Shown here: one piece after another, positions 37,965 through 41,992 of the stretch | How the letters are laid out: each line of letters begins with the position of its first letter | Numbering within the stretch: the stretch's first letter is position 1 | Assembly: GCF_937129525.1 (NCBI RefSeq) | Contig: NZ_CAKZNK010000034.1 | Coordinates: 1 to 47,296, forward strand | DNA: 47,296 nt | Direction of reading: 5' to 3' | Source: an uncultured Chloroflexus sp. | Lineage (GTDB): Bacteria > Chloroflexota > Chloroflexia > Chloroflexales > Chloroflexaceae | The notes under the pieces: generated by a model | Told to the model about the DNA's origin: nothing | Database searches by the model: none | What the model saw: only the letters and a program-made list of their open reading frames with translations | Translations under genes and position numbers: made by a program

Positions 37965-39191
37965 CTATTTGCCGGTGTTCTTCCGTCTTCGACGCTGCTT
38001 TCCGCTACTACCGCCAGTGGTGTTGGTTGCTGTTGGCGATGCTGGTTTCGGCGGTGATGCTGGTTTAGCAGTGGCTGAAGCCTTGCGCTGTTGCTTTGGT
38101 GGCGATGTAGCCGGCGCCGGCTGACTCTTGTTGGTATTTCCGCCCCGATGGCGCGAGCGCGATCTGCTCTGCTCTGCATCCCGGTTTGATTCTACCGGCG
38201 GCGGTAACATCGGCATCGGTGGTGGTGGAGGGGGCTGATCTTCATCTTCCAGCAAACTCAGATCGTCGCTCCACTCAAAAGCCTCTATCTCATCGCGCAA
38301 CATGCGACGTTCACCGCGGTCAGACTTATTCGCTCGCATCGGCGTAATACCTTCTGCGGCGCGGGCGCGGGCGATTGCGGCTACCTGCTCGGTTGCCAGG
38401 GTAATTTGGGGCAGATCATACGTTTCGATCATGCCGCTGCTAGCCAGTTGCACCAGCACTTGTTGCTTGAGCACGTGCTGGCCGACTACTTCCCCTGGCC
38501 CATCCGGTGTCATCACCCAGGTGCCGCGCTTGGGAAGCAGGCTGCGCATCTCGAGATACTGTTCGTGTTCGTAAGCGAGGCAGCACAACAGGCGTCCGCA
38601 GACACCGCTGATTTTGCTCGGGTTAAGCGGCAAATCCTGGTCTTTCGCCATCTTGATCGAGACGCGCGCGTAATCGGGCAGGAAAGAAGCGCAGCAAAGG
38701 ATACGACCGCATGGCCCAATTCCGCCCAGCATCTTCGCTTCGTCGCGCGGCCCGATCTGGCGCAACTCAATGCGAGTTTTGAACATGCGGGCGAGATCGC
38801 GCACAAGTTGACGAAAATCAACCCGCTGATCGGCGGTGAAAAAGAAGGTGAGTCGCGAACCATCAAAGGAATATTCGGCCTTGACCAGCTTCATCGGCAG
38901 GCCGTGTTCTTGCACCTTCTCGGCGCATCGAGCAAGCGCCTCGGCGTGGTACTGTTGCAATTCGGCCATGCGAGCGAGATCGTCTGCTTCTGCTCGCCGC
39001 ACTACCGGCTTTAATTCACCGACGATAGCATCATCGCTGACCTCGCGGCGTTCAAAGGCTACCCTGGCCAGTTCCAGCCCGCGCACTGTTTCGACAATGA
39101 CCGGATCGCCGGTATGAAGTTCAAGATCACCTGGATCGAAGTAGTAGATTTTGCCACTATCTTTAAAGCGAATGCCAACGACGGTAGGCAT
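37965..39191 (-). CDS. ricT: RicT/PSP1-family protein with long Pro/Arg-rich tail
   Basis: 408 residues; homologues are about 260-300. The PSP1 core (about 1-270) is clear: GIRFKDSGKIYYFDPGD at the start, GRILCCASFLPDYA and GRLLCCLAYEHEQY, containing the cysteine pairs reported to coordinate iron-sulfur clusters in the Bacillus RicAFT complex. The C-terminal 110 residues are a low-complexity tail (PPPPPPMPMLPPP near 312, then Ser/Lys/Arg-rich to the end), probably disordered and perhaps RNA-binding. In Bacillus this protein helps RNase Y process mRNAs. Last gene of an operon with a DtxR-type regulator and an adenylate cyclase; 39 bases after the cyclase. Confidence 0.9.
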   Translation of the reverse strand: MPTVVGIRFKDSGKIYYFDPGDLELHTGDPVIVETVRGLELARVAFERREVSDDAIVGELKPVVRRAEADDLARMAELQQYHAEALARCAEKVQEHGLPMKLVKAEYSFDGSRLTFFFTADQRVDFRQLVRDLARMFKTRIELRQIGPRDEAKMLGGIGPCGRILCCASFLPDYARVSIKMAKDQDLPLNPSKISGVCGRLLCCLAYEHEQYLEMRSLLPKRGTWVMTPDGPGEVVGQHVLKQQVLVQLASSGMIETYDLPQITLATEQVAAIARARAAEGITPMRANKSDRGERRMLRDEIEAFEWSDDLSLLEDEDQPPPPPPMPMLPPPVESNRDAEQSRSRSRHRGGNTNKSQPAPATSPPKQQRKASATAKPASPPKPASPTATNTTGGSSGKQRRRRKNTGK

Positions 39192-39230: not shown

Positions 39231-40787
39231 TCACGGTTCGGTGTAGACAATCGTTGCCGCGCCACCGGGTTTGATGCGTGGGCCGAGCACCTTATAAGCG
39301 CGTACCCGTTGCTGTTTCCCCTTGAGCTGCAACTCACCCATCTCTTGCAGTTCAAAATCTTCGCTTACCAGGCGAGCGGTATCTTCACCGATGAAGACCG
39401 TGCCAGGTTCGGCAGCCGATTCCAACCGGGAAGCAGTATTGACCGTATCGCCGATAGCGGTGTATTCCAGCCGATGACGGGTACCGAAGAAACCGGTATA
39501 CGCCGGGCCAGTATTGACGCCGATACGGATGGTAAACGCTTTATCGGGATCGAGTCGGCTGACCAGCCGCTGCTGGGCTTGTTGCATTTCAACTGCGGTT
39601 GCCACGGCGCGCAGAGCGTGTTGCTCATCGAGTGGATCCTCGGGCAGGCGCGGCGCGCCAAAGACTGCCATGATGCCATCGCCGATATATTTATCAACTG
39701 TACCATTGTAACGGAAAATGACTTCGGTCATTTCGTGCAGGTACTCGTTGAGGAGATCCTGCACTTCTCGCGGCGATAGCCGTTCCGAAAGGGCGGTGAA
39801 CCCCTTGACATCGGCGAACAGCACGGTGACGATCTGCTCTTGCGCTTCCCACAGTTTGCCGTGTTGCGCCACGTAACGCGCCAGCGCGTGCGCCACATTG
39901 GGCGAGAGAAAACGTTCGAGATTTTGTCGAACCTGCCCTTGCACCCGCAACTCTTCGGTCAGGCGCGCGCGTTCAATTGCCACGGCGGCCAGATTGGCAA
40001 TTGCGACCACGATGTCGCGATCACGCTGACTAAACTGTTCGCGACCGGGTGAGTCGAGCAGAATCACGCCAATCGCGCCGCCCTGAGTCAGTAGTGGCAC
40101 GCAGATGGCCGAGCGAATGTTAGCGGCGATAATGCTTTTGGAACCGGCAAATTCCATGCGGGCATCATGGGTCAGTATCGCTTCGCCGCGCTCAATTGCT
40201 TTGCGGACAATACTACCGGCAATGGCCACGTCGCCGGTGCCGGGAGGGAAGATCACGCGCGGCACCAGTTCATCACCTTTGCGCAAGAGCAGGAAGCCAC
40301 GCTGCGCCGGCACTAGCCGGATAACTTCTTCCATCACCAGATCGAGCAGTTCGCGGTAATCAAGCGCCTGGTTTACCCGCATGCTAATCTGATAAAAGGC
40401 CTGCAAATCTGCCGGCTGTAACTGCAATTCGTGCGCGGCGACTGCCTGTGCCTCTGAGGCGACCGGGAAGTAGCGGTTATCGTCGAGCACAACGCTTTGG
40501 GCGGCGCGATCTTCGTAGATTAGCTCGAAGGGGCCGATCCCGATCACATCGCCATCATTGAGCTGTTCTTCTTTCACCCGCAGGCGATTGACCGTCACCC
40601 CGTTGCGGCTGTTGAGGTCAATCACCCAGGCCCGGCGATCGCGTAGCTCTACCCGCGCATGCTTGCGCGAAACGATGGCATGATTTAACACGATCTCGTT
40701 GTCGAGCTGGCGACCAATGGTGATCCCGCGCTCGGTGATCGGGAAAGTCCGCTGTTCGCCGTGAATAGTGACTGTAATTCGCGCCAT
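39231..40787 (-). CDS. FHA - GAF - class III adenylate cyclase
   Basis: 518 residues. FHA domain (about 15-80: TIGRQLDNEIVL, SRKHARV, LNSRNGVTVN), GAF domain (about 125-276), linker helix, class III nucleotide cyclase (about 316-500). Metal aspartates Asp326 (FADVKGF) and Asp370 (KYIGDG), Lys366 for adenine, transition-state Asn450 and Arg454 (NTASR). The position of the usual adenine-specifying Asp is Thr443 (EYTAIGDTVN), as in the bicarbonate-responsive IIIb type, so the product is most likely cAMP. FHA suggests docking to phosphothreonine proteins, and GAF binds a small ligand. GGAG precedes the ATG by 7 bases. Middle gene between dtxR and ricT. Confidence 0.92.
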   Translation of the reverse strand: MARITVTIHGEQRTFPITERGITIGRQLDNEIVLNHAIVSRKHARVELRDRRAWVIDLNSRNGVTVNRLRVKEEQLNDGDVIGIGPFELIYEDRAAQSVVLDDNRYFPVASEAQAVAAHELQLQPADLQAFYQISMRVNQALDYRELLDLVMEEVIRLVPAQRGFLLLRKGDELVPRVIFPPGTGDVAIAGSIVRKAIERGEAILTHDARMEFAGSKSIIAANIRSAICVPLLTQGGAIGVILLDSPGREQFSQRDRDIVVAIANLAAVAIERARLTEELRVQGQVRQNLERFLSPNVAHALARYVAQHGKLWEAQEQIVTVLFADVKGFTALSERLSPREVQDLLNEYLHEMTEVIFRYNGTVDKYIGDGIMAVFGAPRLPEDPLDEQHALRAVATAVEMQQAQQRLVSRLDPDKAFTIRIGVNTGPAYTGFFGTRHRLEYTAIGDTVNTASRLESAAEPGTVFIGEDTARLVSEDFELQEMGELQLKGKQQRVRAYKVLGPRIKPGGAATIVYTEP

Positions 40788-41654: not shown

Positions 41655-41701
41655 GACGCGAATGCCCGGCGTCATTAGGAGCGTTATCGCCGACAAAATA
41701 A

Positions 41702-41728
41702 TATTCCCCGCCGGGAAGGCGGGGAATA
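41702..41728 (-). terminator. Terminator after the 14-codon gene
   Basis: Minus strand: perfect 11-bp stem (41718-41728 with 41702-41712), 5-base loop, followed by TTATTTTG. A good intrinsic terminator placed about 35 bases after the peptide stop codon. Confidence 0.85.
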
Positions 41729-41743
41729 CGTTTCGGAGAAGGG

Positions 41744-41786
41744 GTCACCGGTTCGGTAAAGCTTAAGCTACTTTACCAGCGGTGAC
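41744..41786 (-). promoter_or_regulatory. Hairpin overlapping the peptide's last codons and stop
   Basis: Minus strand: GTCACCG (41786-41780) pairs with CGGTGAC (41750-41744), and GGTAAAG (41777-41771) pairs with CTTTACC (41761-41755), with an internal loop of 2 and 4 bases. The terminal loop contains the stop codon TAA (41765-41763). Translation of the last codons would melt it. Confidence 0.65.
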
Positions 41787-41807
41787 ACCCATACGCTTAC
41801 TACTCAT
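41763..41807 (-). CDS. 14-residue peptide gene (MSSKRMGVTAGKVA)
   Basis: The ATG at 41805-41807 is preceded by AAGGAGGTGAT, matching the whole 16S anti-SD, at 8 bases from the core AAGGAGG. The reading frame has 14 codons and a TAA; an ATG at 41811-41813 (MPMSS...) is too close to the Shine-Dalgarno to be used. A consensus promoter lies at 41865-41893 and a terminator at 41702-41728, so a transcript of about 155 bases with nothing else in it is predicted. The peptide is small and basic (Lys, Arg, Lys), with no Cys or signal sequence, and no export or modification genes adjoin it. It could be a signal peptide, a leader peptide for attenuation, or a translated regulatory RNA; I know no homologue. 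The start context and not the protein sequence is the evidence. Confidence 0.7.
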   Translation of the reverse strand: MSSKRMGVTAGKVA

Positions 41808-41864
41808 GGGCATCACCTCCTTCGTGCCTGATCGGCAAGCTATGTTGTTAATATCGACATTGGT

Positions 41865-41893
41865 ACTATACCTAAGGTTGTCGGCAAAGTCAA
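41865..41893 (-). promoter_or_regulatory. Strong promoter of the 14-codon gene
   Basis: Minus strand: TTGACT (41888-41893), exactly 17 bases, TATAGT (41865-41870). The start near 41858 gives a leader of about 50 bases ahead of the Shine-Dalgarno region and ATG at 41807. Confidence 0.82.
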
Positions 41894-41953: not shown

Positions 41954-41992
41954 ATGCCGCGCGATCTGTCACTGTTTAGATTAAGACCGGGT

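Follow-up and report, generated by a model that had tools for sequence, protein, structure and literature searches.

The described RNAs that come closest in their working to the one reported here are erm-type translational attenuators, dual-function small RNAs and type I toxin mRNAs with metastable Shine-Dalgarno (SD) hairpins, and each differs from it in a defining feature. In erm-type attenuators, a choice between 1:2 and 2:3 pairing is tied to the ribosome on a short open reading frame (ORF), and the gene that is controlled lies downstream. SgrS, Spot 42 and SR1 are dual-function small RNAs with a short ORF. Type I toxin mRNAs, such as AapA3 of Helicobacter pylori and hok, form metastable hairpins that sequester the SD; as outlined in parts of PMC6733600, the full-length RNA is locked in an inert state and opened by 3′ processing, and an antisense RNA is also involved. 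Parts of PMC2864571 describe the Downstream-peptide/yfr6 RNAs of cyanobacteria, which carry a riboswitch-like 5′ UTR ahead of a short ORF with indels in multiples of three, and the Chloroflexi-1 motif (RF01698), a structured RNA candidate in Chloroflexus aggregans.

The RNA studied here is predicted on the minus strand of the window (the whole stretch of DNA that was analysed, 47,296 nucleotides from an uncultured Chloroflexus sp.). It resembles the type I toxin mRNAs, as these are presented in parts of PMC6733600, in being a short mRNA with an anti-SD sequence in or near its ORF and a nascent hairpin that would block the SD until more RNA has been made. In contrast to them, a downstream segment would open its start site, there is no antisense promoter signal, and its peptide is short and hydrophilic. 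Like erm leaders, it has alternative 1:2 and 2:3 pairings that would be tied to a ribosome translating a short ORF, but here the switch would act on that same short ORF, which is then followed by a terminator. Its own predicted promoter, short ORF and predicted terminator give it the stand-alone layout of SgrS, Spot 42 and SR1, although its conserved pairings are internal and involve the SD and the ORF. Leader-peptide attenuators also have mutually exclusive hairpins around a short ORF, but a conserved downstream gene is absent here. Finally, the RNA is like Downstream-peptide/yfr6, as described in parts of PMC2864571, in being a conserved RNA with a short ORF and indels in threes, but differs in that its structure is built from the ORF itself and in having no Rfam match, and although Chloroflexi-1 is a structured RNA candidate of the same genus, the lack of a match to RF01698 indicates a different motif.

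As the initial annotation had proposed, the unit begins with a predicted sigma-70-type promoter at 41865–41893, which matches the consensus at 10 of 12 positions (−35 box TTGACT, 41893–41888; 17 nt; −10 box TATAGT, 41870–41865). A scan of 501 bases returned two promoter-like sites, compared with 0.6 in shuffled sequence. The start of the predicted transcript, about 164 nt long (41695–41858), was deduced from the −10 box, and the extent from promoter and terminator agrees with a block conserved throughout the genus (41898–41694). The SD, AAGGAGGTGAT at 41812–41822, had been described as an 11-base match to the anti-SD; the 16S 3′ end that it matches, TGGATCACCTCCTTT, is present in the genome and is the usual one. 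The combination AAGGAGGTGAT-N3-9-ATG occurs once in the 4.48-Mb genome, at the 14-codon ORF itself, which reads MSSKRMGVTAGKVA and extends from the ATG at 41807 to the stop codon TAA at 41763, with a frame that is rigid inside each clade. The annotated hairpin with the stop codon in its loop was confirmed at 41786–41744; within it, the inner stem GGTAAAG/CTTTACC (41755–41777) has the stop codon in its loop. The predicted intrinsic terminator at 41701–41729 has a stem of 12 pairs and is followed by TATTTTG. A 171-nt RNA from this locus has a folding energy of −70.4 kcal/mol, whereas shuffled sequences average −47.0 (s.d. 4.0), and none of 200 shuffles was as good. Its self-contained character, running from promoter to terminator, recurs among relatives: an upstream promoter with at least 9 of 12 consensus matches is found in 107 of 113 distinct copies (6.0 expected from base shuffling), and a predicted terminator within 110 nt past the stop codon in 94 of 112 (3.2 expected). 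We also considered the ORF as the tail of a longer one, since its frame continues without a stop as far upstream as a GTG at 41972, but the SD and the relatives favour the ATG at 41807; an in-frame stop within 90 nt upstream of the ATG is found in only 68 of 113 copies, which alone is indecisive on the longer reading.

In a blastn search with 301 bases, 32 of 41 genomes (its own and 40 relatives) gave matches. Within the genus, the −35 box marks the start of the alignment, and the four longest matches run as far as the terminator (query about 53 to 246–257; window 41898 to about 41694). A covariance model built from 28 copies (R1) found the element in 72 of 82 genomes of the order, including 53 of 56 good genomes. 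Within the class, 106 of 115 genomes (89 of 93 good ones) matched a further model, R2, built from 74 copies, as did 87 of 399 genomes sampled across the phylum Chloroflexota. In genomes beyond the class the element takes a second form, and a model built from 23 second-form copies (R3) matched 96 of 399 genomes of the phylum sample. Since first-form copies in the class account for 30 of these 96, the two forms are mutually recognisable. Together, R2 and R3 cover 146 of 399 sampled genomes, the two samples being apparently identical, and a few of the weakest matches may be chance. In a control on Actinomycetota, one of 296 genomes matched, and this single match is an ordinary coding stretch, hence chance. 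Four Ardenticatenia-type copies combine the frame of the second form with the 2:3 position of the first.

A pattern scan of named genomes yielded 87 loci, of which 83 appear genuine; L111, L120, L156 and L160 were dropped as chance, judging by sequence and organism, and R2 found nothing in their genomes. The 83 loci lie in records named Chloroflexota or unplaced, except one labelled Gracilibacteria. The records titled Candidatus Gracilibacteria (L169) and Thermoflexus hugenholtzii JAD2 (L127) are probably mislabelled bins. There is usually one copy per genome; three genomes (G031, G033 and G065) have two, and the weaker of two loci in another (L181, in G153) looks spurious. A mobile element or phage gene was considered and rejected, given mostly single copies and a pattern scan of viral contigs that returned no matches.

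Aligning relatives, as the initial annotation had suggested, we found that the ORF frame and the hairpin are kept. The annotation had not included a competing helix, in which 41817–41806 (SD end, spacer and start codon) pairs with the ORF interior at 41792–41781. This helix, which would sequester the SD and is mutually exclusive with the hairpin, alters the mechanism that is likely. Three segments are thus predicted to form two mutually exclusive helices. Segment 1, GGTGATGCCCAT (41806–41817), comprises the SD end, the spacer GCCC and the start codon and would be the 5′ arm of helix 1:2. Segment 2 (41781–41792), anti-SD-like and inside the ORF, is by alignment pairing the 3′ arm of helix 1:2, and its part 41790–41781 is also the 5′ arm of helix 2:3. 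Segment 3 (41740–41749), located after the stop codon, is the 3′ arm of helix 2:3, shows two-sided changes, and would be the rival of segment 1 for segment 2.

Covariation in these alignments is strong for helix 2:3 and slight for helix 1:2. We used plain MAFFT alignments (A1, A4 and A5) and one fitted to helix 2:3 (A3); neither A1 nor A3 includes L007, which is truncated by a contig end and whose ORF has diverged. In A3, helix 2:3 is paired in 93.8% of cells, and 9 of its 10 pairs show two-sided changes (77 cells); these counts lean toward this helix because A3 was fitted to it. Two-sided changes also occur in 4 pairs (22 cells) of A1, and in the second form all cells (100%) are paired, with two-sided changes in 6 pairs (40 of 230 cells). 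None of 500 shuffles reached these cell counts, and slid controls were far lower. Helix 1:2 is similarly well paired by alignment (94% of cells in A1, 93.6% in A3 and 98–99.0% in the second form), and in A3 it has two-sided changes in 3 pairs (7 cells), which come from Herpetosiphonaceae-like copies (GATGCTA/TAGCATC) and from L090 (GATGCGA/TCGCATC). Its covariation does not exceed shuffles in A1, A4 and A5, with one two-sided cell in A5, and is limited partly because segment 1 hardly varies; the SD is almost invariant in A1. Segment 2, where it varies, takes almost only letters that still pair with segment 1. RNAalifold on A1 chose helix 1:2 alone, with two-sided changes in 0 of 12 pairs.

Segment 2 of the second form is divided between two partners: its upstream half pairs with segment 3 and its downstream half with the SD, the two stretches overlapping by three bases. 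Segments 2 and 3 flank the stop codon in 72 of 74 first-form and in all 23 second-form copies. Two first-form copies (L048 and L013) have lost the usual stop (TAG to CAG), and their ORF extends into or beyond segment 3. By eye, a small ORF hairpin ends immediately before the stop codon in L114, L131, L163 and similar second-form copies. A small 5′ hairpin, GCC-GATCA-GGC (41826–41836), stands directly upstream of the SD in the window; its cells are paired in 92.9% (A1) and 93.6% (A3) of cases, with a two-sided change in one sequence. At the site where the first form has this hairpin (GCC-GNYYA-GGC), the second form has a conserved box, GCYATCYYA (A5 columns 3–14), directly upstream of the SD, which might be a protein or ribosome contact.

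We compared the two helices in computed folds. Of the two local hairpins, 2:3 is the stronger one in 73 of 74 first-form and 17 of 19 second-form copies, and in the equilibrium ensemble of the element without its terminator, 1:2 is favoured in 31 of 74 first-form copies, including the window, and in none of 19 second-form copies. When prefixes of increasing length are folded, the probability of 1:2 is near 1.0 once segment 2 emerges in all five RNAs, and 2:3 takes over fully with segment 3 in four of them, the window RNA remaining mixed. At full length, the window RNA has probabilities of 0.68 for 1:2, 0.41 for 2:3 and 0.19 for an unpaired SD, which is mostly paired because an extra stem, GAAGG/CCUUC, closes it. 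An outer stem SD/CCUUC was rejected as part of a general model; it occurs in Chloroflexus and in some of the Roseiflexaceae-like copies, but not in all. The mean unpaired probability of the SD shows no clear rise after segment 3 in L106, L020 and L010. The computed cost of opening the region from SD to AUG drops with segment 3 in 74 of 74 first-form copies (15.3 to 8.4 kcal/mol) and in 22 of 23 second-form copies (17.7 to 12.4 kcal/mol), although this is not independent evidence, because segment 3 must lower the cost if helix 2:3 exists. The loop between the 2:3 arms has a median length of 28 nt in 73 first-form and 27 nt in 23 second-form copies; a ribosome footprint is about as long as a 28-nt loop.

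These computations suggest the following mechanism. Helix 1:2 would form first during transcription and lock the start site. Once segment 3 has been made, helix 2:3 would remove segment 2, and the start site would become cheaper to open. A ribosome translating the ORF would melt 2:3 and halt in the loop between segments 2 and 3, and while terminating it would keep these segments apart as 1:2 re-forms behind it, so that each round of translation would reset the lock. The output would be a state of translation or of the RNA, and no particular peptide. We give about even chances to this reading, in which a stand-alone, mRNA-like small RNA of about 160 nt switches its own translation through a nascent lock, an opening on completion and a possible re-lock after terminating ribosomes. 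The nascent lock and the opening rest on computed folding; we infer the re-locking behind the terminating ribosome, as well as the transcription, the translation and the folding order of the RNA. A broader claim, that this is a new class of RNA device in which an ORF-internal mimic of the 16S anti-SD takes ribosome passage as its input, serves as a one-shot or free-ribosome sensor, outputs its own translation state in place of a peptide or a downstream gene, and has been kept across most of one phylum, is put forward only tentatively, and we would sooner bet against it.

The genes around the element vary. In the window, a gene for DtxR (with a FeoA domain) lies downstream on the same strand, and one for RNase H, which is also the upstream gene in the same-genus copies, is on the other strand. 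Farther downstream of dtxR, the minus strand encodes a protein with FHA, GAF and nucleotide cyclase domains (39231–40787) and a PSP1-domain protein (37965–39191). In 15 of 29 loci a gene for a LysM-domain lipoprotein precedes the element on its own strand, and in 23 of 76 it does so at a distance of at most 370 nt, the latter count covering 76 of the 83 accepted pattern loci (L171–L177 left out). This association, for which two proteins were checked with Pfam, spans from Chloroflexaceae to a record named Thermomicrobiales (L144). Among second-form loci, no neighbour is common to more than 5 of 33 (out of 36), and no downstream gene cluster is common to the loci in the 29-locus, 76-locus or 33-locus second-form sets. 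The lack of a shared neighbour favours an independent gene. Several contigs related to the Herpetosiphonaceae-like complete genome of L084 stop a few hundred bases beyond the element.

The initial annotation had offered three options for such a unit, namely a signalling or antimicrobial peptide, a leader peptide or a translated regulatory RNA, and our results are nearest to the last. The strongest rival is nevertheless that the peptide is the product, with the RNA switch keeping tight control over the start site of a conserved micropeptide gene. In its favour, the frame and the ORF are, as far as the alignments indicate, under selection within each form. Measured from the AUG to a fixed point in segment 2, first-form copies have distances of 19, 22, 25 or 28 and second-form copies of 27, 30, 33 or 36, so that each form keeps to a single frame (81 copies in the one and 31 in the other, out of 113 distinct copies; L209, counted among the 31, is mis-anchored but belongs to the second form). 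The sole copy in the third frame (L197, in G024) has another CATCACC stretch after segment 2. Moreover, Ser is common ahead of segment 2, 55 of 112 ORFs end in Arg, and the full 11-base SD precedes no other ATG in the genome. However, segment 2 is read as G-V/I-T/A in the first form, as V-A-S-P in the second and in yet another frame in L197, and lengths range from 12 to 24 residues. The codon analysis covered 114 ORFs, chance loci included, and tabulated the 112 that use one of the two main frames. When the codons ahead of segment 2 are pooled, the third position is the least varied, with T in 288 of 407 first-form and 105 of 176 second-form codons, which is the reverse of what selection on a peptide would give. 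Third-position T amounts to 22% in 36 window ORFs and to 21% in ORFs of the ribosomal-protein region, which were found mechanically and may include spurious ones; the latter figure led us to reject high expression as the cause of the T bias. In the same stretch, Ser is encoded by AGT in 155 of 179 cases, compared with 90 of 648 in window ORFs. Between the AUG and segment 2 (41804–41793 in the window), codons are mostly NNT, and Ser is nearly always AGT or AGC. A stop codon precedes segment 2 in the −1 frame in 108 of 113 copies and in the +1 frame in 74 of 113. The T-rich third position, the AGT serines and the change of frame between forms therefore point to a constraint on the RNA or on decoding and not on the peptide. 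A frame that is fixed inside a form yet changes from one form to the other makes the peptide an improbable product; we consider the micropeptide reading unlikely, and with its poorly kept sequence, the specific idea of a signalling or antimicrobial peptide finds no support.

A trans-acting small RNA, whose segment 2 or SD would pair with other mRNAs or with 16S rRNA as a ribosome decoy while the ORF only gates exposure, would fit a stand-alone unit with its own predicted promoter and terminator and an SD that spans the whole anti-SD, and in the second form the 2:3 loop leaves most of AUCACCUC unpaired. However, segment 2 of the first form is wholly helical in both states and the supported pairings are all intramolecular, and we regard this reading as distinctly improbable. 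Much less credible is a leader peptide with an attenuator of the downstream gene (dtxR in the window), which the layout of two rival hairpins and a terminator recalls. The gene dtxR lies 3′ on the same strand in only 5 of 8 same-genus copies (L001–L005), whereas downstream genes elsewhere vary by clade and are often convergent: 14 of 76 loci have the gene for ribosomal protein L25 in convergent orientation, and in L084 (1927–3001) the element converges on a 23S rRNA gene at its 3′ end. In addition, the terminator stem is outside both switch helices, and dtxR has, as the initial annotation had claimed, its own promoter-like site beyond the terminator (41675–41646). We give equally little credence to the mRNA of a type I toxin-antitoxin pair that is silenced by SD sequestration. 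Metastable SD-sequestering hairpins are a hallmark of such mRNAs according to parts of PMC6733600, and here the SD would be sequestered by an anti-SD, with 93.6–99.0% of helix 1:2 cells paired (by alignment only). But the peptides of 12–24 residues are mostly hydrophilic (median GRAVY −0.29, range −1.11 to 0.92) and not of the small hydrophobic membrane type, an antisense promoter (counting only at least 9 of 12 consensus matches) was found in 1 of 112 copies with 2.7 expected, and the element is usually single-copy, occurs in nearly all genomes of the class and has no match in viral contigs.

The family of this putatively self-switching RNA apparently has not been described, although it occurs in 106 of 115 tested genomes of the class and in further classes of Chloroflexota. 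In Rfam 15, searched with the window and 17 loci, no element reached a gathering score (the only matches were a tRNA elsewhere in the window and 23S rRNA in L084), and the best weak match was rnk_pseudo at 22.2 bits, against a threshold of 55. RF01698 matched neither the window nor L002, L003, L005, L006 or L008. A literature search, with most subscription papers outside its reach, found no description of the RNA.

The comparative data support two alternative folds, both arranged around a short ORF. Should the proposed switch prove true, this would be a minimal system from nature: an mRNA with no gene downstream whose fold is set by the passage of ribosomes. It also raises the question of why a phylum keeps an ORF that is predicted to be translated when its peptide is seemingly unconserved. 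Genes of 12–24 codons with their own predicted promoter and terminator can thus be core genes that annotation has overlooked.
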